Shown here in pieces: positions 24,609 through 45,862 of a stretch of 64,000 nucleotides of DNA. Position numbers and translations under genes: made by a program. The notes under the pieces are model-generated. The model did no database searches and was not told the origin of the DNA. It was given only the letters and a program-made list of their open reading frames with translations. Every line of letters starts with the position of its first letter. Position 1 is the first letter of the stretch. This DNA comes from Planctomycetota bacterium. GTDB taxonomy: Bacteria; Planctomycetota; UBA1135. The stretch covers positions 62,001 through 126,000 of the forward strand of contig QQUA01000016.1 in NCBI GenBank assembly GCA_008501825.1, written 5' to 3'.

Positions 24609-24674
24609 GCCGAAAAAATCGGCGTAACCTCAGGCCGATCTAGCCGTCTTCCAGGCGTACCCGCAGTTTTTTCG

Positions 24675-25685: not shown

Positions 25686-25691
25686 GCCCCA

Positions 25692-25717
25692 AACCTCCAA
25701 TACTTTGGGCCAGTTTC
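25692..25717 (-). repeat. right terminal inverted repeat of the insertion sequence
   Basis: This arm is the reverse complement of the left arm, one mismatch in 26. It begins 6 nt after the stop of the transposase-like ORF. Confidence 0.8.
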
Positions 25718-25721
25718 AGTT

Positions 25722-27551
25722 TTAGGGGTTTGAGGTGGCCTCCGCCTCCTCCTCGTCTCCCCCACCATCTTCGCCATCCGGCTCAGTAAGGAAAAATGGT
25801 TTGACTTGGTAAGCCGTAGACAAGCCTTGGAATGAAAGTTCCTCCCTCAGCTTATTGGAAGCGGCGGTGCGGCCATAGGACTGGGCAATGGTCAACTCGC
25901 TCGGCCAGATTTTTTCCTTATCCACCGGGCGCCGGCTTTCCAGACGAACCACCAACCAACTTTGACTTTGCGGATGTTGGAAGGGCCCCAGGATTTGGCC
26001 ATCTTCCAAGTCCCCCAAGTTCTGCCCAACCTGTCCGCGCAAGAATGGAATCACTTGTTGATCGGTGGAAAATTTCGGATCCGCAGGGCGAGGGCGGCGA
26101 CCGATCCAGTCGACCAAATTCAAGCTTTGCTCCGCTTGCGTGGCTTGCTCTTGGAAAGCTTCCATTTCCAGGACCACGGGATCCTCTTCGGCAGCTCCTT
26201 CCTCTCGAGGCAAACCGTCAACGAAAGCTTCGGCGCCTTCTTCCGCCAGTTCGGCCTGACGTTTCTCACGCCAATAATCCACCACCGAATCCCGGACCTC
26301 AGCCAATTCCGGAAGGGTGCGTTCCTGAATCTGTTTCGGCCGCACCAAATAGGCCAGATCTTCACCAAGGATGGGTAAGGTCAACCATTCATCGACAGTA
26401 CCCCGGACAACCTGTTCTAAGCGAGGGCTGCCAAGCCGCGGGAAGTCCTGAAGTTGAGACAAAACGACCATTTCCTCGGCCAGAATTCGTTCCAAACCCC
26501 GCTCATCGGCGAAAGCTTGAAGGTCTTCCACTCCATCCAACTCCTCCGCCAAACTTTCCATCAGTTGATAAAGGCGGTAATCCCTGGCAAGACGCTCTTC
26601 ACCAATCTGCTCCCGGCTCATCGGACTTCCATCTTCCTGCCGGTAGGAAGTAAATCGCTGAATTCGGAAAAAGCCATCCAAATCGTCTTCGGTCGGCTCC
26701 AATTCAGGAGCCCAACTTTGCACAGCTTCGGTTTCCAAAGCTTCGGCGCTTAAAGCCAAGGCTTCGAAGCTGGCGGCTTCCTCGTTCTCCAGATCCCTTC
26801 TCTGCTGAGGACTTAAACCTTCATCGAAGAAAGTCTGCAATTCCTCTTCACTGGGTTCCAAAGCAGCGGCAGCATCGACAAAATCTTCGCCCTTCCACTG
26901 TAGATAGTGGAATCGGATTTCTTCGTTCTCTTCCGCCCAAGCTTCCAAAGCTTGTTGGGTGGTACTGACGGCAGAGGAAGCCAACAATTCCCGGACCACT
27001 TCTACCCGCAAGCATTCTCGCAACAGGCGCTCATAGCCGGTCCGGCTGCGTTGCCGCAAGCGAGCCAAGTATTCGTCGTAGGTGGTCACTCGCATGAACT
27101 GCATTTGCAATTGGATTTGCTGCCGAATGCGTTCATCGGTGATGCCGATTTCGAGCTCATCGGCCAATTCCCGGAGTACGGCATAACTCAGGATGGATTC
27201 CTCATTCAGCTCCCGGTCGGCCAATCCACTGAATAAAACCGTAGATTCCACCGAAGCCCAATTTCGAGCCGTCAGCCAATCCTCGCCGGAAATCGTGACC
27301 TCATCACCATCGGGCACCACCATGGTGGCTTGATCCTGAGGGCCGGCTCCAACCAGACTGGCGAAAGCGGACATCATGGGCCCGGTGACCGAAAAGATCA
27401 CCAGACAGAAGATGGCGACTCCGATTAACAGGATTCGCTTGCGCTTACCCATCTTGGCGGAGGGTTGAGAGGAAGCGCCCTCGGGTTCAGGCGCGGTGGC
27501 CCGAGCCGGTTTGTGCTGATGCGAGGGCTTTTTCTTGGCTTTACTACTCAT
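25722..27551 (-). CDS. membrane-anchored SurA/PpiD-like chaperone
   Basis: This is probably a periplasmic folding factor tethered to the inner membrane. The start chosen is ATG 27551 (MSSKAKKKPSHQ, 609 aa) rather than the track start six codons earlier. A basic, disordered cytoplasmic tail precedes one membrane helix (ILLIGVAIFCLVIFSVTG). Then comes a SurA_N-type region (LNEESILSYAVLRELADELEIGITDERIRQQIQLQ) and long helical stretches. A parvulin domain is not clear, so isomerase activity is doubtful. The C-terminus is acidic. It is the last gene of the long pseudopilin/scpB run, 73 nt after scpB, and abuts the insertion sequence. Confidence 0.68.
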   Translation of the reverse strand: MSSKAKKKPSHQHKPARATAPEPEGASSQPSAKMGKRKRILLIGVAIFCLVIFSVTGPMMSAFASLVGAGPQDQATMVVPDGDEVTISGEDWLTARNWASVESTVLFSGLADRELNEESILSYAVLRELADELEIGITDERIRQQIQLQMQFMRVTTYDEYLARLRQRSRTGYERLLRECLRVEVVRELLASSAVSTTQQALEAWAEENEEIRFHYLQWKGEDFVDAAAALEPSEEELQTFFDEGLSPQQRRDLENEEAASFEALALSAEALETEAVQSWAPELEPTEDDLDGFFRIQRFTSYRQEDGSPMSREQIGEERLARDYRLYQLMESLAEELDGVEDLQAFADERGLERILAEEMVVLSQLQDFPRLGSPRLEQVVRGTVDEWLTLPILGEDLAYLVRPKQIQERTLPELAEVRDSVVDYWREKRQAELAEEGAEAFVDGLPREEGAAEEDPVVLEMEAFQEQATQAEQSLNLVDWIGRRPRPADPKFSTDQQVIPFLRGQVGQNLGDLEDGQILGPFQHPQSQSWLVVRLESRRPVDKEKIWPSELTIAQSYGRTAASNKLREELSFQGLSTAYQVKPFFLTEPDGEDGGGDEEEAEATSNP

Positions 27552-27624
27552 GGCGGCAGTGCCTGGCAAAATGGAGCGGAGAGTCTACCCGACCGGGGGA
27601 TTCCCGCCTACTCCAGACCCAGGA

Positions 27625-28431
27625 CTAGCTTTGGTTCGAAGGGGACGGACCGGGAGAAGGGGCAGCTTCCCGGTGGTCCTTGGATTCGACGGCTTCGGCC
27701 GGTTCCAGATCGGCCTGTTCCGGGCTTGTGGAGGCAGGGGTCTGAAGTCCGTCTTTCGGCGAATTCCCCTTGGTATCCCCAGTTTTCTTCCCCGGCGGCG
27801 GAGCCTCCGCGGGAAAAGCCAGCCGGCCGGCTTCCGGAAGATCTTTCAAATCGCGGAGACCGAACTGGTTCAAAAACTCTTTGGTGGTGCCGTACAGAAA
27901 CGGCCTTCCCGGCAGATCCGCCCGCCCGAGGATGCGAATGAACCGAAGGTCCAAAAGATGGCGCAGATGGGCGGAACTATTGGCGCCGCGAATGGCGTCC
28001 ATGTCCGCTTTCAGCACCGGCTGCCGGTAAGCCACCAGAGCCAGGACTTCCATGCCCGCCGGACCCAATCGATCCTGGGGAATCTTCCGCCGTACCGGCT
28101 CGAGGGCCTCGGCCACGTCGTCGCTGGTCAACAGCCGCCAACCGGAACCAAGCTTCTTCAAGCTAAGGGGAAGATTGCGCGCTTCGATCCATTCCGCCAA
28201 GGCTTCCAAGTGTTGGCGAGGGCTGGCCGATTCATCCGCGGTGGATCCGGCCGCCTGAGATTCCCCTTCCTTGGGAGAGCCGGCCTTGGTCCCTCGTTTT
28301 TGATCCGCGGGATAGAGGACCTCCCGGATCCGGTCCAGGCCAACCGCCTCTGGAGAGGCGAACAAGAGGGCAAACAGGACCCGAAGCTTCTCCTCGGGAA
28401 TTCGAGACTTATTCAGGTTTCGGGACGACAA
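27625..28431 (-). CDS. scpB: segregation and condensation protein B
   Basis: ScpB is the winged-helix kleisin-associated subunit of the SMC-ScpAB condensin. Signature sequence is present: GMEVLALVAYRQPVLKADMDAIRG, then LRHLLDLRFIRILGR and GRPFLYGTTKEFLNQFGLRDLKDLPE. The N-terminal winged helix begins EEKLRVLFALLFASPEAVGLDRI. No ATG is available. I chose TTG 28431 (22-nt overlap with the upstream gene, AGG 5 nt before); CTG 28416 or ATT 28401 are alternatives. The track ORF to 28659 reads through the upstream gene. A charged insert (about residues 30-55) and a Pro/Ser-rich C-terminal tail make it longer than usual. scpA and smc are not in the window. Confidence 0.87.
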   Translation of the reverse strand: MSSRNLNKSRIPEEKLRVLFALLFASPEAVGLDRIREVLYPADQKRGTKAGSPKEGESQAAGSTADESASPRQHLEALAEWIEARNLPLSLKKLGSGWRLLTSDDVAEALEPVRRKIPQDRLGPAGMEVLALVAYRQPVLKADMDAIRGANSSAHLRHLLDLRFIRILGRADLPGRPFLYGTTKEFLNQFGLRDLKDLPEAGRLAFPAEAPPPGKKTGDTKGNSPKDGLQTPASTSPEQADLEPAEAVESKDHREAAPSPGPSPSNQS

Positions 28432-29347
28432 AGGCCTGTGCCGGCGGAAGAAGACTGGGAAGCCGTTCTTGGGCAGTATAGCGGCGAACCATCTCCTCAA
28501 ACCAGGTCCTGGCTTCCAAGGGAGTGATCGCCTGGCGGCGAAGTTGCTCCAGCAACACCACGGCAGGAGCCGGCCGGTTTTCCGGCGGCAGCCGGCTCTC
28601 CAAGCGCACCACCCGCCAAAGTTGGTCGCCTTCGAATTGAAACGGCCCGACCACGGCACCGGCTTTGGCCGACTTCAGTTTCGAGCGCAAGGGTTCGGGA
28701 AGGTAGACCGCCACCGGAGGGAAACTGGAATCGCCCTTGGGCCCAGGGTCCATGGATTCTCGAGCCAACATGCGCGGATCGGCGCCCTTGCGCAAGCGCC
28801 GAGCCCATTGCTCCGCCTGCTGAGGATCCGCTCCGATCAGCATGTGGAATTGGTATCGGCCGGCGGCCATGGCGTCCGCCCGCAACACGATCTGATAGAG
28901 CTGGTTGTCGCCTAAATGACGCCTCAGCACCGCTTCGACCTGAGACCAATTGCGACCGTATCGCCCTTGGGCCCAATCTTCCAATTCTTGATCCTCGGCC
29001 AAGCCTGCTCGGATGCCGTTCACCGATTGAGCCACGGCAGTGTCCAACTCATCGGGATCCACTTGATAACCCATCCGCTCCGCTTCCAAGCGGGCGAATT
29101 CACCACGCAATAGGCTCCGCACCATGGCCCGACTTTCGTCGGGAAACATAAAGACGGTCTCGGCGGTAAAAGCCCGAGCATCCATGGCCCGACCATCCAA
29201 CATGATTTCGGACAAAAGCGCCGGATGCCCGCGCCAAGGGAAAGCCACCTCGGTTCGGGAGGATGGCCCGCCACAGGCCAGAGCCCCAAGGGCCAAAGCC
29301 AATGCCAGCGGAACCGGCTTGCCGGACCAGCAGGAAGTCACCACCAA
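28409..29347 (-). CDS. SurA-like periplasmic lipoprotein
   Basis: The 312-aa protein has a lipoprotein signal (VPLALALALGALACGG, lipobox cysteine near residue 25). A SurA-type helical N-domain follows (LLRGEFARLEAERMGYQVDPDELDTAVAQSV), then a region suggestive of a degenerate parvulin domain (YQFHMLIGADPQQAEQWARRLRKGAD ... GDSSFPPVAVYLPEPL ... VGPFQFEGDQLWRVVRLESR). It is likely a chaperone or peptidyl-prolyl isomerase for exported proteins. Successive TTG-GTG-GTG codons at 29347-29339 are all possible starts. The track uses the first, 3 nt after the upstream stop. Placement behind the pseudopilin genes suggests it folds secreted or pilus-related proteins. Confidence 0.65.
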   Translation of the reverse strand: MVVTSCWSGKPVPLALALALGALACGGPSSRTEVAFPWRGHPALLSEIMLDGRAMDARAFTAETVFMFPDESRAMVRSLLRGEFARLEAERMGYQVDPDELDTAVAQSVNGIRAGLAEDQELEDWAQGRYGRNWSQVEAVLRRHLGDNQLYQIVLRADAMAAGRYQFHMLIGADPQQAEQWARRLRKGADPRMLARESMDPGPKGDSSFPPVAVYLPEPLRSKLKSAKAGAVVGPFQFEGDQLWRVVRLESRLPPENRPAPAVVLLEQLRRQAITPLEARTWFEEMVRRYTAQERLPSLLPPAQAFVVPKPE

Positions 29348-29350
29348 TCG

Positions 29351-30883
29351 CTAGTAGAAGTACACCGCCCGCCGTTTGCTCACGCCTTGGCAGGTTGGAC
29401 ATTTGTGGCGCTTTTCTTTGGCCCCTTCGGCACCGACTTCGGTGACCCGAATCACTCCGGTTCCACCGCAGGTGATGCAGTTATCAAACCGCGCCCGGTG
29501 CAATTTGTAGTCACCGGAAAATTCGGCGTAGTAGGCCAGCAGGAATTGAAAGCGCTCCGTGGCGGTGGCTTTACGCCACCAGTCTTCCGGCGAATATTCT
29601 TCATCTCCAGAAGCTTTGCGGCGTGCACGATCGAGGTTTTCCAAATACCTGCGAGTCCGTTCTTCCAGCTCCCGTTGTTCCGGAGACTTGCCGTCATCGA
29701 TTTGTTCTTCTTCCACCTCCAAGCCGGCCAAGGCCTTGTCTTCACCCAAGATCCAGGTGCCGTCGCCATAGGTGGCTTGAAGGCGCCGAGGAGTATGCTG
29801 GAAACGATTTCCCCATAAGGAGTCCAACTCTTCAGGAGAAACGTCGTCTTTCATGGATTTCAAATCATCCAATAGTTTTTCCCGAACTTTGCTGGGAGCT
29901 TCCGTTTCCGCCCAGCTCATCAAGCTGTCCATGGTGACGTTGGACTCATAAGACTTGCGCTTGACCACCCCGACTACCCGCTTGAACCATTGACTGACCA
30001 AGTGGCGTTCCATGGCCGCCTTGCGCTCTTCTTCGAAACGGTCCTGCAACTCCAAGAATTCTCCGCGCAAACCGGCTTGCGGGAATTGGCCTTCGAAGGC
30101 ATCCAATTTCTCCAAAGCGGTGGTGAAGCGACCTCGGTGCATCAACTGGCGGATCTCGGTCAAGGCCGCCGCCTCTTCCCGATGGGCCATGGTCTGTTCC
30201 AACTCGTCCAAGGCGACCTCAACCCGACTCGCCAAGGCTTGATCCCCTTCGGCTTCTGCGGCTTCCGACGCCGCCTGGAGGTGTTGTTGCGCCTGTTCCA
30301 AGGCATAGACACTGCGCAATTCTTGGGCGAATTCATAATGCCGCAAACCGGAATCCAAATTTACTTCCAGCAGGCGCTCGTCGTAGAACTGCTCCGGGGT
30401 CAAAATTTGATCGGCGGGCACCACCACCGGTTCCGGAGGAGCCGCCAGCATCCTTAAAGCCACCTTGGTGGTGTTCTCCCGAATTCTCAGTTCAAGAAAC
30501 TGGGCGTCCTTGCGCAACACACGCCCGACCAATTGGCCGCCGTTTTTCAGCATCAGCAAGTCGGCGGTCACCGTCGGGATGCCGCTTTGCTGGCGATAAC
30601 CGAAACTGGTTTTCAGGCGCTGCCCTTCACCGGGAAACAAGTCGTTCCAACTCAAGGCGTAGCGACCTCCGTGACGGCTGGAAACCAATACCAAGCCGTC
30701 CAGATCGTGTTCCACGATGTTTCCGACCAACAAGCGGCCGTCGCGGAGGCGAACGATTTCGTTCTCCCCAGGAAGATCTTGAGCCGCACTCCAGGGAGCG
30801 GCCGCGGCCAGAACCGTAAACAACAGGAGGAGGAGGGATCGCATGGCTTTCTTGCTTGACATGGCGGGAGACAGCCGGCTCAT
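29351..30883 (-). CDS. exported protein with DnaJ-like zinc motifs, unknown
   Basis: The 510-aa protein has an N-terminal signal (MRSLLLLLFTVLAAAAPWSAAQ). A beta-rich region reads like an LSm/SH3-type repeat (VRLRDGRLLVGNIVEHDLDGLVLVSS, then LLMLKNGGQLVGRVLRKDAQFLELRI). Long helical, coiled-coil-like sequence follows. At the end come two zinc-knuckle pairs, CITCGGTGVI and CPTCQGVSK, like those of DnaJ cysteine-rich domains. I do not know a named family. ATG 30883 overlaps the GspI stop (ATGA), so it is translated with the pseudopilins. Possible roles are a periplasmic chaperone or a pilus accessory factor. Confidence 0.65.
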   Translation of the reverse strand: MSRLSPAMSSKKAMRSLLLLLFTVLAAAAPWSAAQDLPGENEIVRLRDGRLLVGNIVEHDLDGLVLVSSRHGGRYALSWNDLFPGEGQRLKTSFGYRQQSGIPTVTADLLMLKNGGQLVGRVLRKDAQFLELRIRENTTKVALRMLAAPPEPVVVPADQILTPEQFYDERLLEVNLDSGLRHYEFAQELRSVYALEQAQQHLQAASEAAEAEGDQALASRVEVALDELEQTMAHREEAAALTEIRQLMHRGRFTTALEKLDAFEGQFPQAGLRGEFLELQDRFEEERKAAMERHLVSQWFKRVVGVVKRKSYESNVTMDSLMSWAETEAPSKVREKLLDDLKSMKDDVSPEELDSLWGNRFQHTPRRLQATYGDGTWILGEDKALAGLEVEEEQIDDGKSPEQRELEERTRRYLENLDRARRKASGDEEYSPEDWWRKATATERFQFLLAYYAEFSGDYKLHRARFDNCITCGGTGVIRVTEVGAEGAKEKRHKCPTCQGVSKRRAVYFY

Positions 30884-31290
30884 GAGTCTAAACGGCGACT
30901 CATGGGCACCTGTTTGGCTAAAAGAAAACTGAGCCGCGCCACCGGCCGCTCAGGATTGGAGCGATAAAAGCGCAGGCGTGCCCGGGGCAGGCCATCGGCT
31001 CTCTTGGGGTTTTCCACGATCAAGTCGTATTTGTAGTCCGGGGCTCCTGGCACCGGTTGGGCCAGGAATTCCTGCAACCGGGTGGTGCCGCCTCCGGAAT
31101 CCAGCATCCAAGCTTCGTCGAGAAGCTTTTGCACCAGGGGTTCGACGTGTGGGGCCAATTCGGCATGGGCCCGGGCGGTGTTTTCCATGCCACCGCCAAA
31201 CTGAAACAAACCTAGGAGAGCCGTGACCCCGACCAGGAACAAGCCCATGGCCAGGAGCACTTCAATCAAGGAAAAACCGGACCGGTTCAT
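30880..31290 (-). CDS. minor pseudopilin, GspI-like
   Basis: The 136-aa protein has a class III prepilin signal: NRSG then FSLIEVLLAMGLFLVGVTALLGL, with glycine at -1, phenylalanine at +1 and glutamate at +5 of the peptidase site. The track ORF extends to 31638, but ATG 31290 overlaps the stop of the preceding pseudopilin gene (ATGA) and gives a proper leader. It probably sits at the tip of a pseudopilus. The assignment as I-like rests on order (after J- and K-like genes) and short length. Confidence 0.75.
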   Translation of the reverse strand: MNRSGFSLIEVLLAMGLFLVGVTALLGLFQFGGGMENTARAHAELAPHVEPLVQKLLDEAWMLDSGGGTTRLQEFLAQPVPGAPDYKYDLIVENPKRADGLPRARLRFYRSNPERPVARLSFLLAKQVPMSRRLDS

Positions 31291-32210
31291 GGAGCCCACC
31301 TCCTTCCTTCGGCCACCACCCAAGCTTCTCCAGCATAGCTCTTGGGAAGCAAAACCGGCGCCCGAGCGGGGTGAGCTTCGAAACTGGTATCCCTCAGCCC
31401 GCGCTCGGCAATGGACAAAGTCGGCGGGGTTCCGCTGACCCGCATCCATTCTTTCTCCACCAAGGCGAATTCCGGAATCTTGAAGGGGAGTTGTCCGCGC
31501 AAACGCATGCGGTTGCCCGCAGCCTCTAAATCTTCGTCCAAGCGTGGAGGTCGATTGCGGGCCGATCCCGCCACCCGTTCCAGGCGTAGGCGAACCTTGG
31601 CCGGCAGGTCGCGGACCGGATCGGGAGGAATTTTCCATTCCTCATGCCACTGCCCTTGGCTATCCAGAGCCGCGAATTCGGCCCAAGCCACTCCGTCTAA
31701 AACCACTAGACCGGCACCCTCTCGAGCCCTTCGTTCCACCAAGCGATCGCTGCTTAGAAAAGACTCGGACGGATTCTCCAATTGAGTCAGGCGCATCAAG
31801 CGGCAAAGCCGGCTGTTGGCAGGATCCTCCGGCACCAGCATCCAGACGATTTCCACGGCGTGTCGAGCTTCCGGATCTTGATCCAGGGCCGCCCCGCCGT
31901 GGGCCAAAAAACGCATTCGGGGCAGATACCAAGCTTGTTGCGCTTCGCCGGCGGGAACCGCCTCCCAGAAATCGACTTCAAATCGGCCGCGAGCTCCGTT
32001 GTGCAAAGCCCGCAAATCGGTACGCAACTTCTGCAAGGTCGAACTGAACACCAAATCGCCATGGCCACGGCGTTCCCCGTTCTGCCACAAGCCCATGACC
32101 GAATTCAAAATACCGGCGACGAACAGTCCGAGCATGGCGAATAGACCGAGAGCCAACAACACCTCGATGAGGGTCATGCCGGAGCGGTTATTACGACCAG
32201 CGGTTTTCAT
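31287..32210 (-). CDS. minor pseudopilin, GspJ-like
   Basis: The 307-aa protein has the prepilin leader NNRSG followed by MTLIEVLLALGLFAMLGLFVAGI, with the conserved glutamate at +5. The body has a PulJ-like pattern (GDLVFSSTLQKLRTDLRAL, ALDQDPEARHAVEIVWML). It is longer than typical GspJ (about 200 aa). Start ATG 32210 overlaps the stop of the 1663-aa gene and its stop overlaps the GspI-like start. It is likely part of the tip complex with the K-like and I-like proteins. Confidence 0.78.
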   Translation of the reverse strand: MKTAGRNNRSGMTLIEVLLALGLFAMLGLFVAGILNSVMGLWQNGERRGHGDLVFSSTLQKLRTDLRALHNGARGRFEVDFWEAVPAGEAQQAWYLPRMRFLAHGGAALDQDPEARHAVEIVWMLVPEDPANSRLCRLMRLTQLENPSESFLSSDRLVERRAREGAGLVVLDGVAWAEFAALDSQGQWHEEWKIPPDPVRDLPAKVRLRLERVAGSARNRPPRLDEDLEAAGNRMRLRGQLPFKIPEFALVEKEWMRVSGTPPTLSIAERGLRDTSFEAHPARAPVLLPKSYAGEAWVVAEGRRWAP

Positions 32211-35200
32211 TCCACCACCTCGGCCCAGCGTTGAATCCGGGGTTCGGCCAGATAGTCAATCATCAGGTTGCGAAAGCGAGGAGCGGTGGTCCAGCCGAGA
32301 GAACTGAAATTGACCGGATCGAAAGCCCCGACGTCCCAATCGAAACTAATTCGAAGATCCAATCGATCGGAAGCCAAATCCAGCGGATGGAGTCCCCCAC
32401 CCTGGGCTTTGCCTTCTTCCAACAACACCACTCCCGGAGTTCCGGGAACGTCTTCAAAACTGGCTTGGCCGCTACGCAACCACAGCCGGACTTTATGAGA
32501 AGCATCGGGTAATTCCGCTTCGTATTGAAGGCCCCGCCAATAAGCCTGGGGTTCGTCCAGCCCGATTTGCAGCCAGGCGGCTGCCGGACTGCTACTCGCT
32601 GCGACGTAACGGTCCTGCCAGCGGCAGGGAAAACTGTAGACCAAAGTGCCTTGGCCGTGATCGGCGGCCACGGTGCCGAATCGGCCTCGCAAAATGCCGT
32701 CGCCGCGATCTTCCTCTTCACCCGGCAGACTCCGGTGGCGCGGCATCATCAGTTCTTGGTTCTGCCCTTTGTGACTGGTGTGAATCAACTCCTGATCGAT
32801 CAACAAGAGGCTTTCCGGCGGGAACGGGGATCCATCCTCGACGATCAAAGTCGCTTCGCCTGGAGTCACGTTGTTGGTCAAGACCGAAACCGGCCGGCCA
32901 TCGACCACGTACACATGAGCGCCTTGGGCATGACCGCGGGCTTCCGTTCCGTGCAAGCCGCGACCTCCCGGAGCAATTTCAATCTCTCCGGTTCCGGGAT
33001 TGAAGCCGCTGTATGCGATGCGCTCGCCATCGATATCCAGCAATCCGCTTTCGGGGAAGTTCGCGAACCAGCCTCCGGCTTGGGTGGAAAGGCGGCGCCG
33101 GCCGTCCAAAACCAAAGCGTATTGATGCAGGAAAATAGAACGAGGTTCGGTGGCTTCCAAATCCTGATCCAACATCCAAGCTCCACGAGCCAAAGCATTG
33201 TTGGCCGGCCCCATTCCGGCCACCGTATGCAAACTAACCTCGTCAACCATGCCGTTGAAGGAAGTCCCGCCGGAAACGCTGCCGCCGACGTTAAGAGTAT
33301 CCAAACGGACCGGCCGTTCCCCGCTGGGAAACTTCACCAGTCGTTCCATGGTTCGGATGTCGGTGTTCGGAGCGTTCAAGTTCTGACCGCCGACCCAACC
33401 CAAAAATGGCAAACCCGGGTCTTCATAAAAGGCCACGTAAAAACGGCCGTTCTCGGTTCTCGGACTGAGACGGCTGGGCTTGGCCCATTGCACCGTGAAC
33501 CAGTTCGGCGGCAAACTTCCTTGAGGTTGCATCACCGCCACACGATCCTTGCGGCCGACGAATCCGGTGGAGGAATCCAAATTGCGTAAGGTCTTGAACA
33601 CCGGCACCAAGCGAGTTCCGCTTTGCTGGGCGTGATCATAAGTTCCCATGACTCCTCGGAAACCGTAAGCCCGGCGAATGGTTTCGATGGTGTCGGGCCG
33701 GTCGTCCACCGGCTCGCCGATGGTCCGGGCAAACACGAAAGCATCTTCCGTTTCCTGCAATAGCGGCGGGGTGAGGGCATACAAACCGCCACCGGCCCGG
33801 CCTCCAGGCCGGCCGCCGGAACCAATGTTGCCGCCACCGGGATTGCCGCCGTCTCCAGGGCCGCCAGGCTCTTCTGGCACGTCGGCTCGAACTTCACTCA
33901 GATAGGCACTGACTGCATTCTGAAGAGCGCCCCAATCATCGCGCACGAACATTCCGTTGATGATGCTGTCATAGCGCACCCATTCGGTTAAGCCGGCATC
34001 GGCGTCCGAAGTCAGTTGCACGAACTGGGAAAAGTTGTCGTCTCCAGGAAGATAAGTGACGTCACTGATCCCCGATCCTTTCACTGAAATCGGAATGATG
34101 TAGACGTAACTGTCGGGTAATTCCTGCAAGGGAGTATCGTCGCGATAGACGAAACTTTCCCACTCGGTGACGAAGGATCGAGCTTCACTATAAGCCCAAT
34201 CGGGAGGCCCGTCTTCGCCGCTCAACAGCGGCAACTGAATGTTCCTTTGAATTAGATTCAAGGTGGTTCCGGAGCGGGATGAATACTCGACCACTTCCAT
34301 ACCGGAAATCAAACAATTGTCGCCGGTACGCAAACCGTCCCGACCCCAATACACCCACTGCACCATGAGGGCGTAACCGCCGTTTTCCTGGAAAGCCTCG
34401 GCGTAATAAGGATCGCCTTCCGCTTGCGGGATCGGCCCGAGCTCAATCTCACCGAGATAGCCACAGGTGATGCCCATGCCGATTTGGAAACTGCGACCGC
34501 TGAGCGGGCTGACGATTTCAATCGGATCCTGGCCGTTGACGACTTGGGCCAAAGACCAAGGGCCGACGTTGCCGGTTAAACGACCGCCGCCGATAGGAAT
34601 CCCATCCTCGTCGATGATCGCACTGTAACCGTAAAGCTCCACCCCGGAACCGGCGGGGTGGTAGGTATCCAGAGAGTTCACCGCTACGTCCGAATCTTCC
34701 CGGGCGGCGCGGCCGCCCAAATACCCGTCCGGACCAGCAATCCGTTGAGTGATGAAAGTGTTTGCGGTTTTCGACGAATACTCGATGACTTCTTGTCCCA
34801 CCCGCAAAACGCCGCGGTTGGGAAAGCCCTCGGTGGATTCCACCACCAGGACGTCGTCGGGAGAACCGGCGGCGTAAGCGCTCAAGGGCGCCGTCAACTC
34901 GGTGTATCCAAGGACTTCACCCCGGGGAACGCCGTCCACCGCCACCTGAAAACCCCGAGCGGAAATCCCGCGGAGCAAAGTGGAAAGATGGAACCATCGA
35001 TCTTCCAAATCGTATTCCGCCGGATCCACCCGCACTTCCAGGGCTTCTTCCAAATTGTCTTCGTCAAAGGGATCCTGGCCGGCGTTGTCATAGGCTCGAA
35101 TGACCAAGCGCCCTTGTTCGATGGCGGCGAATACCCGCTCTTTGTCCACCTCCGGACCGCTTAAGTCGAATAAAAAGCCGTCCTGCAAGCCGTCGTGCAA

Positions 35201-38223: not shown

Positions 38224-38286
38224 GGTCGTTTCAGTTTTCGATTCATGGCGGTCCCGGTGAGGACCGCCCTCGGATGGGCACGGAGG

Positions 38287-38904
38287 TCAGGATCCTTGGA
38301 AGTGAGTCAAGTCGTCTTCGGTTCCGAACAAGCCATCTTCACCCGCCGAAATCAATTGGTAAGCGTCGGGTTCTTGCCAATTCCCGGTCCGCTCGTGGCG
38401 TTGGGCCTTGGCTTGTTGTTCTTCCCAAACTTCATCGATCCCCGCTTGCACGGTATGAGTCTCGTCATAGTGCAGGGATTCCATGTAAAGAATGGGATTG
38501 CCCCAGGCATCGCCGAACTCGAACAGTTCCTTACTGCCTAGGGAGCTGGTGGCTTTTTGACTGAAATCCTGATCGGTGTTCACCAACCAATCTTGCTTCG
38601 GACGAGTCCCGGTCATGCGCTCATCGAACAAGGCCACCACCAGAGCTTCACAAGGGGCATTGACGCCGTTGGAATTCAAACCTCGGGGAAGGCGGTCGTT
38701 GGGAAACTCCCCCATTTGCTGGCGGTATTGCAACACTAAGTTGGACAGCTCCAGCAAACGAGTTTTGGTTTTCTTTTCCGAAGCCTTGCCGAAGAGATCT
38801 CCACCGGTCACCAGGAAGAAACTCATCAGGATGGCGATGATGAAAAGGACCACCAAGATTTCGAGCAAGGTGAATCCGGAACCGGGACGGCGGACTTGCA
38901 TCAT
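38287..38904 (-). CDS. major pseudopilin, GspG-like
   Basis: The 205-aa protein has leader RRPGSG followed by FTLLEILVVLFIIAILMSFFLV, a textbook class III signal and hydrophobic helix. The globular part has EFGDAWGNPILYME, equivalent to the DPWGNPY box of GspG. It also has a C-terminal acidic loop LISAGEDGLFGTEDDL resembling the calcium-binding loop of major pseudopilins. It is larger than the usual 140 aa because of a mid-protein insertion. Start ATG 38904 overlaps the stop of the TPR gene. It would form the shaft of the pseudopilus. Confidence 0.82.
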   Translation of the reverse strand: MMQVRRPGSGFTLLEILVVLFIIAILMSFFLVTGGDLFGKASEKKTKTRLLELSNLVLQYRQQMGEFPNDRLPRGLNSNGVNAPCEALVVALFDERMTGTRPKQDWLVNTDQDFSQKATSSLGSKELFEFGDAWGNPILYMESLHYDETHTVQAGIDEVWEEQQAKAQRHERTGNWQEPDAYQLISAGEDGLFGTEDDLTHFQGS

Positions 38905-41579
38905 GGTTGCGCGAACACCAATTCAACCCGCTCGACGGCGACGTCTACCGCAACGGCTTGGCGGGTTCTGGCAAAAGCCCCCATGGTCAATTCCCCGGAG
39001 GCGGTTTTCAAAACGGTCACCTTGTCTTGGAACAACTGGCGACCGTTCGCGGTCACGGTCAAAACCGGCGGTTCCTGCTCACGGTCCAAATCAAACTGAA
39101 CCGAAAGCGGCGTGCCGGCCGCGACCCGAAGAGAACTTCGCTCGTGACCGATCTCGCGAGCGGATTGCCTGGATTGCCACCAAACGGCTCCATCTCGATC
39201 CCGATAAACGTGGAAGAACCAAGTGGCTCGCCCGGCCCGGTTCTCCAGCGAAAGGTACAAACCGGCGTCACCGCGATGATCGCTGCCGGCGGAGATTTCG
39301 CCATGGAAAGCCTGGAAGGTCAAAGCCCTCTGGCGCCGGAAAACCCGGGTTTCCCCTTCCTCCCGATGACGCCCGAGGATTTGCAATCGACCGTTTCGAA
39401 TCGCCGGCTCCACCCCAAGCCTGGCTTGACTTTGGGGATCCCATTCCGGGCGGAACAAGGTGCCTTCAAATTCGTCGGTCCAAAGACGCAGTTTGTCATG
39501 ACCGGCCACCCGGTCCGACCAAAGTTGGGCGTAGGCGTATTGAGTATGGGTCGGCTCCGCCCGCAACATGTCCATCAACTCGCCGAATTCGGCGATGCAA
39601 GTGTCCAGGTCTCCTTCCCGGTAAGCGGCCCAGGCCAAGGCATTGCGAGCTTCATGCAAATCCGGCTGCAAAGCCAGCGCGTCCCGCAACGAAGCTCGGG
39701 CGTCTTCGACCCTTTGTAGGCTCAGAAGATTGATGCCGCGGCGCAGCGCCAATTCGGGAATTTGCGGCGCTTCGACGATGGCTCGGCGCAAAGCAACTTC
39801 GGCCCGATCCAAACGACCTTCGCCGTGCAACAGCCATCCCAATTCGGCCAGAGCGGCGGCGCAACGAGGCCATCCTCCAATCAGGTACCGGAGATCGGTC
39901 CGAGCGGTGGCGGTGTTGCCGTCCTGGCGAGCCCGCCGAGCCCGCAGATAACGGGCATAAGGCCACTCCGGATCCAATTCCAAAGCGGCGTTCAAACTTT
40001 CGGAAGCCTGGTCTTCCTGGCCCATGACCTCAAACCAAAACGCCAAAGCGGAAAGAGCCGGAGCCGCATCCAATTTATCCGCCCTGGAAGCTGCCCGAAG
40101 ATCGCGGACGACTTCGGCAGCCGGTTCTCCATTGGCGGCGGCACAGATTCCTCGCAAGTAAAGCAAATTCGGCTGGGCTCCCAAAGCTTCCACCGCTTCC
40201 ACCGAACTTGCGTAGGCCTCGGCGAACCGCCCGGCCAAATAATCGGTGGCGATCAGGCCGGCCCGGGCTTCAACTTCCGACAGGGCTCCGCTTTGAGCCG
40301 CATTCAAGGCGTCTTGAAAGGCCCGTTTCGCTTCCGGCCATTGTCCTTGTTGCAAATGAGCCTGGCCTAAAGCCACGAAGTTGCGAATCGCTTCGGGGTG
40401 ATTGCGAGAACTCTGAAAACCGGAAGCCTTGCGCAGCCAAGGAAGCGCTTCTTCGGCCAGCCCTTGTTGCAGCAACAACAAACCCAGTTCCAGAGGAGCG
40501 GCCGGATCGGAGTCGGGCAAATCAGCGGCTTCCCGCAAAATGTTCTCGGCCGGTTCTTCCAGTTGGAAAATTCGCAGAACCCGGGCCATGCCCACTCGTG
40601 GAGCGCCTCGAGTGGCGAATTTTCCGGCAGGCACTTCCACCGGCAGTTGGGGGCGGATTTCCCCGGACGGCAAATCAACGCCGGCCAAGCCGGCATACAA
40701 GGCAAAGGCCTGATCGTAGCGGAAGGTCCGTTCCCAAACGCTTCCCAAACTCAACCAGCTCTTTAAATCTTCCCCGGCCAAGCGGATCCCTTCCAAAGCC
40801 AATTGTTCGGCGTGTTGGAAAGCGACCGGTTCGCGAACGCCTTGATCCAACAACCAGCGAATCAACTGGCGCCGATCCAAAACCGCTCCGGCACTGGGGT
40901 CCAGCGCCCGAACCCGCAACTCGATGTCGTTGCGCAAAGTTTTGGCAAAACTAAAGCCGGTGTATTGATCGCCTTCGAAAACTACCGGTTGTCCCCGGTC
41001 GGTTCCGGTTCGAGGATCGACTTGTTGAAAGGTCAGGGGTTCGCCGGGCCGTTTGTCCCAGCGATCCTCGTCCAAAATCCGACCCCACAAGACCAGGAAA
41101 GTGGTTCGCTGAATGGAGTCGTACAAATTGGCGTAATCTTCATCGCCGTCTTGAGCATCGCCATCCTCCAAGGCCTCGCCGCCGTTTTCTTCCACCGCTC
41201 CTTGGTCCAAGGCGTCCATTTCCACCAAATCTTCCAAATCTCCAGGAGGAGCCTTGGGATGAGCCAGCAAATTCCGACTCCAATAATCGGGACCGCTGTC
41301 GGGCAACGGCGGCGGCAGCAACGCCGGAAGGACCGAAAGGTCGGGAAAGGGAAGTTCCAAGGCCGGAAGCGGCACCACGTCGCGAGGTTGGCGGAACGGA
41401 TCCCGACCTCCCCCATCCGCGGCTAAATCATGAACCGGGTCGACCGGCCCTAAATCGGCCAATTCCAGCGGCAATTGAGTGACTCGCGATTTCCGAATCG
41501 GATCCGGATTCAATTTTGACCAAATCAAAAGCGCCAAAATAGCGGCGACGCCGATGAGCAGGATTTGTTCGCGCTTCAC
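38901..41579 (-). CDS. membrane-anchored TPR protein with C-terminal lectin-like domain
   Basis: The 892-aa protein starts at GTG 41579 (GTGA overlap with the GspM-like stop). An N-terminal membrane helix (ILLIGVAAILALLIWS) is followed by a Pro/acid-rich linker (residues about 60-160), GspC-like in layout. A long array of tetratricopeptide-like repeats follows (for example AAPLELGLLLLQQGLAEEALPWLRKAS, ASESLNAALELDPEWPYARYLRAR, ARASLRDALALQPDLHEARNALAWAAYREGD). The last 200 residues look like a concanavalin-type domain (FQAFHGEISAGSDHRGDAGLYLSLENR). It may be a periplasmic assembly platform for the pseudopilus. No named family was recognised. Confidence 0.7.
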   Translation of the reverse strand: MKREQILLIGVAAILALLIWSKLNPDPIRKSRVTQLPLELADLGPVDPVHDLAADGGGRDPFRQPRDVVPLPALELPFPDLSVLPALLPPPLPDSGPDYWSRNLLAHPKAPPGDLEDLVEMDALDQGAVEENGGEALEDGDAQDGDEDYANLYDSIQRTTFLVLWGRILDEDRWDKRPGEPLTFQQVDPRTGTDRGQPVVFEGDQYTGFSFAKTLRNDIELRVRALDPSAGAVLDRRQLIRWLLDQGVREPVAFQHAEQLALEGIRLAGEDLKSWLSLGSVWERTFRYDQAFALYAGLAGVDLPSGEIRPQLPVEVPAGKFATRGAPRVGMARVLRIFQLEEPAENILREAADLPDSDPAAPLELGLLLLQQGLAEEALPWLRKASGFQSSRNHPEAIRNFVALGQAHLQQGQWPEAKRAFQDALNAAQSGALSEVEARAGLIATDYLAGRFAEAYASSVEAVEALGAQPNLLYLRGICAAANGEPAAEVVRDLRAASRADKLDAAPALSALAFWFEVMGQEDQASESLNAALELDPEWPYARYLRARRARQDGNTATARTDLRYLIGGWPRCAAALAELGWLLHGEGRLDRAEVALRRAIVEAPQIPELALRRGINLLSLQRVEDARASLRDALALQPDLHEARNALAWAAYREGDLDTCIAEFGELMDMLRAEPTHTQYAYAQLWSDRVAGHDKLRLWTDEFEGTLFRPEWDPQSQARLGVEPAIRNGRLQILGRHREEGETRVFRRQRALTFQAFHGEISAGSDHRGDAGLYLSLENRAGRATWFFHVYRDRDGAVWWQSRQSAREIGHERSSLRVAAGTPLSVQFDLDREQEPPVLTVTANGRQLFQDKVTVLKTASGELTMGAFARTRQAVAVDVAVERVELVFAQP

Positions 41580-42343
41580 AGCTCTTCCTCCAACTGGGGC
41601 ATGCCGCCGGCGGCCAATTGCACGTAGACTCGCCGAGCTCGTCCTCGTTTATCCGGCGGAGTCACCGAAAGTTGGTCCAACCCCAGAGGCGGTTGGTGTT
41701 GCAGCAAAGCTTGGACGAAAGTGTGCACCTTTTCATCGGGCAGATGCACTTCCAGACTGACTGGAGTCAAATCCAACACCGAATCTCCCAATCCACGAAT
41801 TCGCTTCGGTGCCCGAGTGGAGATTTCCATGTCGTCGACTTTTTCCGCACCCGAGGCCACCGCAAGTCGCACCACCTGTTCGACCACCGCCAAACCGCGC
41901 AATACCTTTTGAATCTTTTGCGGCTCGTTGGGGGAAGTCGGCGGCAGGCCCAAAGATTCATCCACTTCCACGTTTTGACGCAAAGCCCAAGGAATCAAAT
42001 CCTCTCGGACGTCACCGCTCAACTGAATGTAATGCTGGCGCCAAGATTGCCCTTCTTCCGGTTGATAGGCTTCCGGAAGCACCGGCAGGGTTCGGCCGAC
42101 CAAGTTGCCGGCACGGTCGTCCAACTCATTCAAACGCTGCCGCAATTCAGTGACCGAGGAAGATCCGTACCACTTGGAGCTGCGCAGGATTTTGTTTTGG
42201 GATTGAATGCTGCTTTTGCCGCGTTTGTGGCGGCTACCGACGGTGGATCCGAGAATCGCTTCGGCGATGAGAAACAGCACCAAACCGGCCGCGATTCCCA
42301 TCAGGAAGCGGCGGTGAGTTTGCCAGAAGGCGTCGAAGTTCAT
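41576..42343 (-). CDS. GspM/PilO-like inner-membrane protein
   Basis: The 255-aa protein has a short cytoplasmic tail, one membrane helix (LMGIAAGLVLFLIAEAILGS), a coiled coil and a periplasmic alpha/beta domain (ISTRAPKRIRG ... VSLEVHLPDEKVHTFVQALLQH), the layout of GspM/PilO. It follows the GspL-like gene by 46 nt and precedes the TPR gene. GspM and GspL normally interact, which fits. Sequence conservation is low, so the assignment leans on architecture and position. Confidence 0.65.
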   Translation of the reverse strand: MNFDAFWQTHRRFLMGIAAGLVLFLIAEAILGSTVGSRHKRGKSSIQSQNKILRSSKWYGSSSVTELRQRLNELDDRAGNLVGRTLPVLPEAYQPEEGQSWRQHYIQLSGDVREDLIPWALRQNVEVDESLGLPPTSPNEPQKIQKVLRGLAVVEQVVRLAVASGAEKVDDMEISTRAPKRIRGLGDSVLDLTPVSLEVHLPDEKVHTFVQALLQHQPPLGLDQLSVTPPDKRGRARRVYVQLAAGGMPQLEEEL

Positions 42344-42389
42344 GCTGGAGGGCTGGGCTTAGGCGTGGCTTGCGGTTGGAGAAAACAAA

Positions 42390-44045
42390 CTATTCATCCT
42401 CGTATTCCTCATCGGAATCGGGATCGGCTTGCACCAATAGCTGAGCGGAAATGGACCACTCCAAATCCCGCCCTCGAGGTTTGGCGGTTTCCCGAATGGA
42501 ATCCTCGCCGCGAGGCAGTTGCGATTTCAGGTCGGCGACAAAGCGATTGAACACCGTCCGGGCCGGCCGGGATGCATCTTGGCCACGGCCGCCGACGGTG
42601 ACCACCGGAACGCTGACGCCGGCCAAGCCCCAGTCTTTTCCTTCCTGCAATTCCACGGCGAAGCTTTCTACCCAAAGGTTGTCGGGCAAAGCCGCCAACA
42701 GGGTTTCGTACATTTCCCAAGCACTTTGTTGTAAGGCGCGCCGGGTTTGCAGTTCTTGCACGATGCCGGTTTTGCGTTGCACTTCTTCCAGCAACCCTCG
42801 AGCCTCGGCGTCGGCCTTGCTGGCTTTATCCACCTGAATGCGCAACCGGCGGGCGTCGGCCGCCAAGTCGGTGGCTTGGCTCGAAGTCACGAAGAAGTCG
42901 AAGGCCAGGAAAGCGATGACCAAGGCGGCGGCAATCACGGCGAAAATGCCGCGCTCTTGGAATTCGCGGCGCTTGCGAGCCGCCTTGGGCAGGATTTCCA
43001 AGGCGTAGAGATCGGCATCGGCCGCCGACAAAGCCAACCCCAAGGCCACGGAAGCGGCAGGGCCGTCTTCTTCCAATGGGTCGGCCTGCTCCGGCGGCAA
43101 AGCGGACAGGTCCACCATTTCGACTGGATTCCAGACCGAAACGGGAACCCGCATTCTTTCCTGAAAGAATTCGGTAATGCCCTTGGCCTTGGCCCCGCCA
43201 CCGGTAAGCAAAACTCGATCCAGGCTCAAGTCCTGCAATCGAGCTTGGGCTTTGCAAAGGGTCACCACGCTGCTGAGCAAAGTGGGCAAGGGATCGTAAA
43301 ACGGCAATACCGGCCGAGTCACCCGATCCGGATCGGTTTCCAGGCGCTGGCCGATGCCGCCACGCAGATCCATGTGTTTGTGGATCAAGCTCTGGGCCCG
43401 TTGCGGCGAAACTCCCAAGCGCTGGCCGAGACTGGCATCTCGTTTATCCAAGCCAGTGGTCACCGAACGGGCGAAGTACAAATCGGTGCCGCGGACCAAA
43501 CAGAGATCCAAGGTGGTCGCTCCAACGTTGGCCAGCAAGGTGACGGAGGCTTCATGGTCCCCCAAGGCCAAGTAGGCGTTGTAAAGAGCGATCGCGTTGG
43601 GAGTGAAGCCCTGGACCGGCAGTTTGTCCAATAGGCCCATCCATTCTTCCAACAAATCCTCTCGCACCAAGCCAAGCAGGATGGTGTCGTCTTCATCCAG
43701 TTCCTTGGGAACCGGCAAAAGATTAAAGGAGGTTGCCAGCGGAGAACCGGAACGGGATTCCAATTCTCGAACTTCGAAATCCATCAACCGTTCCAAACGC
43801 CAGTCTTCCACCGGTGGAACCGGCAGATAGCGCATCATCAAATCGGAACCGGTCAAGCCCACCCTGGCCGGCGTCGGCTTTTTGCTTAGGCGCCCAAAAG
43901 CTCCGCCGGCCGCTTCCATCGGCGCTTCGCCACCTTCCACGGTTTCGGAGTAATAGCGCTGCAGGCTGATCTCGCCCTTTTTGTTGCGCAATTGCGCCAG
44001 CCGCACCTTGTGATGGCCGGCATCCAATCCGGTGCCCAAGCTCAT
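42390..44045 (-). CDS. GspL-like protein (PilM-like actin fold fused to PilN-like part)
   Basis: Residues 1-350 form an actin/PilM-like cytoplasmic domain (GTGLDAGHHKVRLAQL, phosphate-like loops LANVGATTLDLCLVRG and VLLTGGGAKAKGI). A membrane helix (IFAVIAAALVIAFLAFDFFV) and a PilN/GspL-type periplasmic part follow (LRIQVDKASKADAEARGLLEEVQR ... WEMYETLLAALPDNLWVESFAVEL), with an acidic tail. In type II secretion GspL recruits the GspE ATPase to the membrane. The 551-aa size and domain order fit GspL. It starts with ATG overlapping the FHA gene stop (ATGA). Confidence 0.78.
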   Translation of the reverse strand: MSLGTGLDAGHHKVRLAQLRNKKGEISLQRYYSETVEGGEAPMEAAGGAFGRLSKKPTPARVGLTGSDLMMRYLPVPPVEDWRLERLMDFEVRELESRSGSPLATSFNLLPVPKELDEDDTILLGLVREDLLEEWMGLLDKLPVQGFTPNAIALYNAYLALGDHEASVTLLANVGATTLDLCLVRGTDLYFARSVTTGLDKRDASLGQRLGVSPQRAQSLIHKHMDLRGGIGQRLETDPDRVTRPVLPFYDPLPTLLSSVVTLCKAQARLQDLSLDRVLLTGGGAKAKGITEFFQERMRVPVSVWNPVEMVDLSALPPEQADPLEEDGPAASVALGLALSAADADLYALEILPKAARKRREFQERGIFAVIAAALVIAFLAFDFFVTSSQATDLAADARRLRIQVDKASKADAEARGLLEEVQRKTGIVQELQTRRALQQSAWEMYETLLAALPDNLWVESFAVELQEGKDWGLAGVSVPVVTVGGRGQDASRPARTVFNRFVADLKSQLPRGEDSIRETAKPRGRDLEWSISAQLLVQADPDSDEEYEDE

Positions 44046-45862
44046 GACCTTTCCTCCAAGAAAGCCGCCAACAAGGGATAAGCCTTCGCCAGCGCCGCTT
44101 GCAAAGACTGCAAATAGGCGCCTTGTTGGTCCCGGCGACTGGCTTCCACCTGCTCCGCGTTTTGATTGAGCAACTCGGCGACTTCCAACGCTGCCGGTTC
44201 AATGTCGGTTTGGGGGTACGAAGCCGCCAAACTCCTGGCCGCCTTTTCCACCCGGCGCATGTCCAAAACCGATTCCAGGAACAAAGCTTCGCTCATCTCC
44301 ACTTGCAGGTCTTTGAGCCGTTGCCGTCCTTCCACCATGATCTGGCGCCGGAAGTCCAAAGCCTTTTCCACTTCCTCTTCCTTCAAAGGCCAATCCCGCA
44401 ACAAATCGGAAGTGGCTTGAAGCAAAGTGGCGTGATCTCCGCTTCGGGCGGCGGATTCAATTCTCAAAGCCAACGTCGCCGCTTGTTCCAAAGCGTGATT
44501 CAAATTCCAACGCAGGTGCAATTGGCCAAGGTCACTAAGCCGGACGCTGCGGTCGGCACCCCGGACCCGCAAGGTGGAATCTCCTCGCAATTCCAAGCGC
44601 AAACCTTGACCGCCCAACAGCAAGCCCGGAGAATTTTCCACTTGCAAGCCGGGAGAAGGAACCGAAGGCCCGCCTTCACCCAACACCAAAAACGGACCGG
44701 ATGCAATCATGGCTTCCGAGGCTTGGACTTCCAACCAAGCCTGATCCCCGCCTTGGTTTTGGAAACTCAAACCGTCTTCACCGGCTTGCCAGGTGGCGCC
44801 GAAGCCCCGGACTTCCACCAACCATTGATCGCGCAATTGATAGCGGAGGTTGCCGCCGAATTGGACCGTCCGGCGACTGCCGCTGGAATTTTCTTGGGGC
44901 TTGGCTTCGCTCTCCACCACCTTGAGGCTCTGAAGGCTGCCTTCGCCCTCGAACCACAAACGCAGTTGAAACCAATCGGCTTGTTCGGGCAGGGCCAACA
45001 CCGCCGGCCCGGAGCCCAAGGGTTCCGAACACCAAGTGCCCAAAGCTTGTTCCTGATCGTCCTGACCCCAGGAAACGGCGGCCACGGCTTGCAAATCGCC
45101 TTGGACTTGGGCGCTGAACTCCAAACCCGACTCTTCCATGGGAAAGGAAGGAGCCAAACTGGCTTGTTGCCGGTTCCCTTTACCCACCACCAAGCAATTG
45201 CCGGAAAAACTCAGGCCGGAGGAAAGGCTCCAAAGCGCTTGGCTGTCTTCGCTGAAGGCGCCGTGGTTGTCAATCAGGTCCGCCACCTGAGTCACCGGCC
45301 CGCCGGCGGCGGAGGGAGAGGTTCCAGCCGTGGTTTCGGGCGCCTCTTCCTTATTTAAAAACCACCAAGTCCCGCCGGCGGCGGCTCCCACCACGATCAC
45401 CAAAAGGGCGATCATGCCTAGGCCGCTCCGTCGCTTGCCGGACATGGCTTCTTGCACGGCCCGGGCGTGGATGGCGGCGTCTTCGCTACCGGCACCGGCG
45501 AGCTGGGGTTCGGCCGCGGCGGTCGGGTCGCCAGCTCCCCCGGAAGAATCTTCGTCCAAAAGGACGATGTCCTCCTCGGCCAGGAGCTTGACTTTGAGGT
45601 TGCCGAGGCGCAGTTCGCTGCCGGAAAACCATTCGCCTTCAGTCACCTTCATTCCGCCGGCCCAAGTGCCGTTGGTGGAACCGAGGTCCTTGAAGCGAAC
45701 GCTTCCCTGGTCAGTGATTTGCAGCTCCAGGTGACGCCCGGAGACAGTATCCGCTTGAATGCGGAGGTCGGCGGAAGGGTGGCGACCGCAAACGTGGCGG
45801 CCGGGGCCAAGTTCGGCCACGCGGCCGGCCTCTGGGCCGCCGAGGATTTGGATTCGGACCAT
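44042..45862 (-). CDS. FHA-domain membrane protein heading the pseudopilin operon
   Basis: ATG 45862 is used (606 aa); the track ORF extends into upstream noncoding sequence. Residues 1-95 are a forkhead-associated phosphothreonine-binding domain (GRHPSADLRIQADTVSGRHLELQI, FKDLGSTNGTWAGG). A membrane helix follows near residues 150-170 (LGMIALLVIVVGAAAGGTWWFLN), then a large beta-rich extracytoplasmic part with a lectin-like segment and a helical C-terminus (EVEKALDFRRQIMVEGRQRLKDLQ). FHA domains imply control by Ser/Thr kinases. As first gene of the operon it may couple phosphorylation signals to pseudopilus assembly. Confidence 0.8.
   Translation of the reverse strand: MVRIQILGGPEAGRVAELGPGRHVCGRHPSADLRIQADTVSGRHLELQITDQGSVRFKDLGSTNGTWAGGMKVTEGEWFSGSELRLGNLKVKLLAEEDIVLLDEDSSGGAGDPTAAAEPQLAGAGSEDAAIHARAVQEAMSGKRRSGLGMIALLVIVVGAAAGGTWWFLNKEEAPETTAGTSPSAAGGPVTQVADLIDNHGAFSEDSQALWSLSSGLSFSGNCLVVGKGNRQQASLAPSFPMEESGLEFSAQVQGDLQAVAAVSWGQDDQEQALGTWCSEPLGSGPAVLALPEQADWFQLRLWFEGEGSLQSLKVVESEAKPQENSSGSRRTVQFGGNLRYQLRDQWLVEVRGFGATWQAGEDGLSFQNQGGDQAWLEVQASEAMIASGPFLVLGEGGPSVPSPGLQVENSPGLLLGGQGLRLELRGDSTLRVRGADRSVRLSDLGQLHLRWNLNHALEQAATLALRIESAARSGDHATLLQATSDLLRDWPLKEEEVEKALDFRRQIMVEGRQRLKDLQVEMSEALFLESVLDMRRVEKAARSLAASYPQTDIEPAALEVAELLNQNAEQVEASRRDQQGAYLQSLQAALAKAYPLLAAFLEERS

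Follow-up and report, generated by a model that had tools for sequence, protein, structure and literature searches.

Among the described systems closest to the locus analyzed here are the type II secretion system (T2SS; GspC-M), the lectin-bearing type IV pili of Streptococcus sanguinis, and the Amuc_1098-1102 pilus locus of Akkermansia (Verrucomicrobia). The locus is a thirteen-gene operon with five pilins, running on the minus strand from position 45862 to 25722 of a 64-kb window (the whole stretch of DNA analyzed, G000:C10:62001-126000) in a planctomycete genome whose assembly measures 5.72 Mb and is 84% complete. Modular lectin pilins (PMC8179133), multi-locus type IV pili (PMC6668835), and Amuc_1098-type pili (PMC4960237) are already known. 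As far as the literature searched can tell, the fixed operon, a giant lectin pilin of the GspK type, and lectins on both H and K are new; no description of the operon was found in that literature, which was open-access only, so that absence is no proof. We propose, at a probability of roughly 0.6, that the operon encodes the alignment complex and the pilins of a type IV filament (type IV pilus-like) machine whose genes are dispersed over the genome, with a sugar-binding tip and with pore and motor encoded elsewhere, and we read it as such rather than as a secretion system that is missing parts.

Relative to the T2SS, the operon likewise unites a G, H, I, J, and K set with a GspL/PilM protein and a GspM-like protein. 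However, it adds an FHA protein, a tetratricopeptide repeat (TPR) protein, a zinc-motif protein, and chaperones, and it has no D, E, or F gene, nor does any related locus of this type have one, which sets it apart from T2SS loci. S. sanguinis has a minor pilin whose ConA-lectin module binds glycans and which has been modelled at the filament tip (PMC9934059, PMC8179133). The PilB and PilC pilins of that species share with the operon the design of a pilin module with a grafted ConA-like lectin, PF13385 being a common architecture there (PMC8179133, PMC9934059). PilC keeps Glu5 and is ~53 kDa, whereas the giant pilin of the operon is of the GspK type without Glu5, and H is predicted to bear a lectin as well. 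Similarly, the PilM of the operon resembles Amuc_1101_fam, and the secretin linked to it in relatives resembles Amuc_1098_fam with its N-terminal TPRs, all of these matches lying far under equivalog cut-offs. In contrast to the Akkermansia locus, the operon has no linked secretin here, and it also includes FHA, TPR, five pilins, a giant K, chaperones, and ScpB. Finally, the dextran-binding fibres of crateriform structures offer a planctomycete precedent for a surface fibre that binds polysaccharide; they were shown in Planctopirus and Gemmata, and no genes were assigned to them there (PMC5394234).

Gene content and pilins of the operon

In order of transcription, the operon encodes an FHA protein, a PilM/GspL-like protein, a GspM-like protein, a TPR protein, the pilins G, H, K, J, and I, a zinc-motif protein, a PPIC chaperone, ScpB, and a second PPIC chaperone; Pfam and NCBIfam matches back these names, the GspM-like protein excepted. 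All open reading frames (ORFs) were found where the initial annotation had placed them, and its account of their packing agrees with the sequence, in which exactly seven junctions overlap as NTGA (FHA/PilM, M/TPR, TPR/G, H/K, K/J, J/I, and I/zinc-motif) and scpB, from its probable TTG start at 28431, shares 23 bp with the gene upstream. Its wider proposal, a T2SS/type IV pilus-family machine of unusual composition, also stands, and the machine is conserved.

The window encodes a GspG-like putative major pilin (38287..38904; typeII_sec_gspG 9e-12, under cut-off), a GspH-like modular pilin with a ConA/laminin-G lectin domain (37195..38223; Laminin_G_3 3e-07), a giant GspK-like pilin of 1663 amino acids (aa) as the putative tip (32207..37198), a GspJ-like pilin (31287..32210; N_methyl 1.6e-05, gspJ 3.8e-05), and a GspI-like pilin (30880..31290; N_methyl 8.8e-06). 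N_methyl matches fall on G, H, J, and I, and Glu5 is present in all 105 aligned members of these four groups. Together with the residue at -1, it is found in 29/29 G pilins (Gly or Ala at -1), 21/21 J pilins, and 19/19 I pilins (Gly in both). Several operon proteins thus have a class III (prepilin) signal with Gly(-1), Glu5, and a hydrophobic helix, which places them in the type IV filament superfamily. K, in turn, has Gly(-1) in 36/36 relatives and Glu5 in none of the 36, as expected of a K-type tip subunit; published work describes both the missing Glu5 of the K subunit and its location at the tip of the filament (PMC9934059). It also bears a GspK-like 'PVNINTA..EVL' motif. The T2SSK model matches 11 of 26 K relatives (best 1.2e-4), Laminin_G_3 matches 7 of the 26, and untruncated relatives have K ORFs of 1590-2029 aa.

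Lectin modules appear on two of the five pilins. Among H relatives, N_methyl is matched in 15/15 and Laminin_G_3 in 14/15, which makes H a modular pilin; its predicted lectin domain is established by computation. A lectin domain on K is likely. The AlphaFold model of K residues 556-1663 (mean predicted local distance difference test [pLDDT] 80.9) returned 13 Foldseek matches at E <= 0.001, to neurexin, laminin, and Gas6 LNS/LG domains, with low TM-scores for a query of many domains; the N-terminal half (residues 22-560) was modelled at a pLDDT of 80.7. No lectin match was found in ten pilins or pilin-like proteins from the other filament clusters of the genome, which marks the lectins as a trait of this locus. 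Of the two functions first suggested for the operon, adhesion or export, adhesion is now the better supported because of the modules on H and K, whose sugar binding is putative. A LamG match in one of 15 members of the TPR protein, at 0.0046, was not accepted, and none was found in the FHA protein. Separately, 5 of 26 giant K proteins (alignment A2) match Rcc01698_C, a phage/gene transfer agent tail-tip domain, at 1.2e-6, hinting at a possible shared receptor-binding fold.

Upstream of the pilins lie the candidate platform genes. The FHA protein (44042..45862; ORF of 634 aa) has a cytoplasmic FHA domain (PF00498, 7.5e-12; present in 15/15 relatives), one transmembrane (TM) helix at ~173-197, and a periplasmic C-terminal part. 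The PilM/GspL-type actin-like protein (42390..44045) matches PF11104 (PilM_2) at 8.5e-12 across residues 6-340, followed by a TM helix at 362-389 and a periplasmic PilN-like part; its NCBIfam matches, Amuc_1101_fam (2.5e-27) and pilM (1.1e-18), are both under curated cut-offs. The GspM/PilO-like protein (41576..42343; TM 12-37) retains its initial name from position and topology alone, a convincing Pfam family having been found in 0/14 members. The 892-aa TPR protein (38901..41579) has an N-terminal TM helix, an 'RDPF' stretch in which R59 is invariant and D60 nearly so (alignment A8), and then TPRs (TPR families, 1e-17). The stretch is reminiscent of PilP/GspC and may indicate a link to these proteins.

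Downstream, the zinc-motif protein (29351..30883; DnaJ_CXXCXGXG 3.4e-04) has a C-terminal four-cysteine motif equal to half of the DnaJ type, with C469, C472, C495, and C498 invariant. The motif first noticed is real, and the term "exoprotein" finds no support beyond a signal-peptide-like N-terminus. Of the two proteins initially called SurA-like, the first (28409..29347; Rotamase_2 5.9e-06), a PPIC/SurA-type chaperone and possible lipoprotein, scores 27.5 bits for a PPIC-type rotamase against a cut-off of 27. The second (25722..27551), PpiD/SurA-like and membrane-anchored (TM 43-73 of the longer ORF), reaches 24.5 bits and stays under it; its Rotamase_2 (5e-05) and SurA_N_3 (0.0069) matches both fall short of cut-off. 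Between them, scpB (27625..28431; PF04079, SMC_ScpB, 2.6e-38) encodes a condensin subunit.

A probable mobile element of ~1137 bp (window 24580-25716) ends 5 bp from the last gene of the operon. It has inverted ends of ~41 bp (88%) and an ORF of 336 aa without a Pfam match. A second copy, 97% identical, lies at L022:7435-8571 (G000:C16), and both copies directly adjoin a type IV filament locus.

Conservation of the gene order

The named relatives of the assembly are planctomycete metagenome assemblies. A PilM relative is present in 58 of 61 near genomes, and the genes FHA-PilM-M-TPR-G-H-K-J-I-ZnJ-SurA1-ScpB (ZnJ, zinc-motif protein; SurA1, first chaperone) follow on one strand in 36/36 order-level loci from seven families, as far as each fetched contig reaches, some being truncated at their ends. 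This recurrence is far beyond chance; the arrangement is an ancient one. Although the genome does contain other systems with pseudopilins of their own, conservation of the cluster is strong, so the condition first set for refuting the proposal does not hold. The PilM profile matches 323 of 392 genomes across the phylum, falling below 1e-160 in 62 of 63 genomes sampled from the order; it is also strong in many other families and weak or absent in a set of mostly well-assembled ones. Among 40 loci outside the order, most hold the core FHA-PilM-M-TPR-G-H(-K-J-I), which extends to many more Planctomycetota families, and a recognisable K is absent in two families. Neither in these loci nor in those of the order were D, E, and F genes recognised beside operons of this type. 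The exceptions come from three divergent PilM copies, each with a neighbouring secretin; one of these loci also has a CpaF/TadA-like ATPase.

In the order and in several further families, the chromosome-segregation gene scpB holds a fixed place within the operon and is thereby co-transcribed with a filament machine. It could be asked whether the order is held only by co-transcription with this essential housekeeping gene and the chaperones, the pilins sharing no common machine. We regard this as very improbable, given that the operon retains in order its five distinct pilins, its L- and M-type proteins, and the lectin module of H, and that PilM of the operon type is single-copy in the genome.

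Candidate pore and motor

The operon was first described as lacking a secretin, GspE, and GspF. This is correct for the 64-kb window, in which no secretin, T2SSE, or T2SSF domain was found. It is not correct for the genome, which holds 6 secretin, 6 T2SSE, and 8 T2SSF domain matches outside the window, and a reading without any secretin, E, or F at all is ruled out by these genes. The genes for type IVa pili are as a rule spread over several loci (PMC6668835), and a split arrangement is therefore no anomaly by itself.

The most likely pore is S25a, an Amuc_1098/PilQ-like TPR secretin (Amuc_1098_fam, 4.1e-27), because gene linkage ties it to the operon in relatives from other orders. S25a and a second such secretin, S25b, surround ExbB, two ExbD, and two TPR proteins at L025:3797-16937 (G000:C22:581.8-594.9k), and S25a relatives occur across much of the phylum. 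Positions of the best PilM, S25a, GspD24 (a T2SS secretin), and PilC matches were compared over the same 392 genomes; the counts cover the best matches listed and rest on positions copied out manually, and related genomes do not count as independent observations. Outside the order, S25a lies on the contig of the operon in 12 of the 43 genomes with both positions listed, and within 25 kb of it in 11/43 (f14, f20, f31, f54, and f63). Within the same distance, GspD24 is found in 0/44 genomes and PilC in 0/26. Moreover, a divergent PilM-M pair directly follows a secretin in L278 and L280, with Amuc_1098_fam as best NCBIfam match (4.6e-50 in L280), and in L271, with PilQ as best match. Amuc_1098 is the outer-membrane PilQ of Akkermansia and has N-terminal TPRs (PMC4960237).

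These counts bear on an alternative that we consider unlikely, though the strongest of those weighed: a split T2SS to which the operon gives GspL, GspM, a GspC-like TPR protein, and a specialised pseudopilus, sharing GspD-E-F with the T2SS-like cluster L024 (C22). L024 has D, E, F, G, H, I, and J, with no L, M, or K nearby and no C of its own, and the operon has L and M with no D, E, or F. Both are kept in G006, G013, G020, and G042, they lie 34 kb apart in one genome (G077), and T2SSK and gspG signatures occur among the pilins of operons of this type. However, the complete G-H-I-J set of L024 would make the operon pilins redundant, and the linkage within 25 kb is with the S25 secretin and not with GspD24.

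A lone short secretin, Sec21, was also considered as partner. It sits with its own GspK between pnp and purA (L021:7134-10265; G000:C10:19.1-22.3k; secretin at C10:20.9k), and match coordinates from about a dozen genomes place it on the same contig as the operon, ~60-115 kb away. We keep it as a possibility and do not prefer it because S25a lies far closer to the operon in other orders. The secretin and GspK pair is kept in G006, G013, and G042.

The genome has several genes for an assembly ATPase and a PilC/GspF platform, but the operon and its surroundings have none. The reduced genomes G006 and G013 keep the operon, the D-E-F-G-H-I-J cluster, the lone secretin with GspK, the PilB/PilT/PilC block, and the S25 secretins. 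Their GspE/PilB types are limited to GspE24 and to PilB, PilT, and PilB2, so the choice of motor lies between the GspE24 set and the PilB/PilC set. Co-occurrence over the 392 genomes was uninformative as a motor finder, PilC-like matches being near-universal (388/392). The PilB-PilT-PilB-PilC motor block, with a histidine kinase, lies at L026:7911-17864 (C23), its PilT showing no link to the operon; the block is preceded by DUF1573 proteins and is kept in relatives from the family and the order. Two further filament clusters have their own machinery, L022 (C16) with pilins, PilM, N- and O-like genes, secretin, E, and F, and L023 (C7) with its own secretin, E, F, and pilins.

The setting of the S25 secretins admits a different drive, in which a filament or envelope-spanning machine runs on the ExbB/ExbD proton-motive module instead of a GspE/PilB ATPase, for example in polysaccharide capture or uptake. 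S25a, the two TPR proteins, ExbB, and ExbD cluster with S25b, the same cluster is linked to the operon elsewhere, and pili-like fibres that bind gold-dextran occur in Planctopirus and Gemmata (PMC5394234). We think this improbable, since pilin polymerisation as known requires a PilB/GspE-type ATPase and a PilC/GspF platform. A strong operon match is, moreover, absent in many well-assembled families to which the organisms with published fibres may belong, and those fibres may be something else. A related and equally speculative idea, to which we give little credence, is that a giant lectin K tip captures external polysaccharide and that pilus, TPR secretin, and ExbB/ExbD form one uptake machine.

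A proposed filament machine

Computation supports the gene content, its conservation, the pilin motifs, the lectin domain of H (with one on K likely), and the secretin linkage seen in other orders. Under the proposal of a dispersed type IV filament machine, we infer the pairing with a secretin in this genome, the motor, the tip position, sugar binding, and the role of the chaperones. The PilM/GspL, GspM-like, TPR, and FHA proteins would form an inner-membrane platform, and prepilins would be inserted and then processed. An I-J-K-H tip complex would nucleate on the PilM/M/TPR platform and start the filament, below which an ATPase and a PilC-type protein would polymerise G as the shaft pilin. 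K, without Glu5, would cap the tip and, with H, display ConA/laminin-G-type modules; the tip would exit through the secretin, and the modules may grip glycans or surfaces. The pore would most likely be the S25-type TPR secretin at G000:C22, and the ATPases and platform the PilB-PilT-PilB-PilC block at G000:C23. In the periplasm, the two PPIC chaperones, perhaps with the zinc-motif protein, would help to fold the large tip proteins, and they are well placed to assist with the 1663-aa K. Finally, FHA may bind a phosphothreonine partner and so tie assembly to a Ser/Thr kinase.

Several observations count against this proposal. The signatures of G and H could equally fit a T2SS pseudopilus; the K of the window itself matches neither T2SSK nor Laminin_G_3 in Pfam, and a Foldseek search with its N-terminal half returned no GspK match (best E 0.13, unrelated). 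In this genome, contig C10 carries the operon and contig C22 the S25 secretins, which sit in an ExbB/ExbD operon, not in a pilus operon. The 25-kb cut-off was picked after the data had been seen, and the 11 linked genomes represent just five families. No motor is linked to the operon in the genomes compared.

In summary, the operon supplies a defined, phylum-wide gene set for testing the surface filaments of uncultivated planctomycetes, a phylum in which polysaccharide-binding fibres are known by microscopy, no genes being assigned to them in PMC5394234. Its K is about twice as long as the most extreme modular pilin of a 2021 survey, at 860 aa (PMC8179133), and gene linkage nominates an Akkermansia-PilQ-like secretin as the pore through which such a filament may pass.

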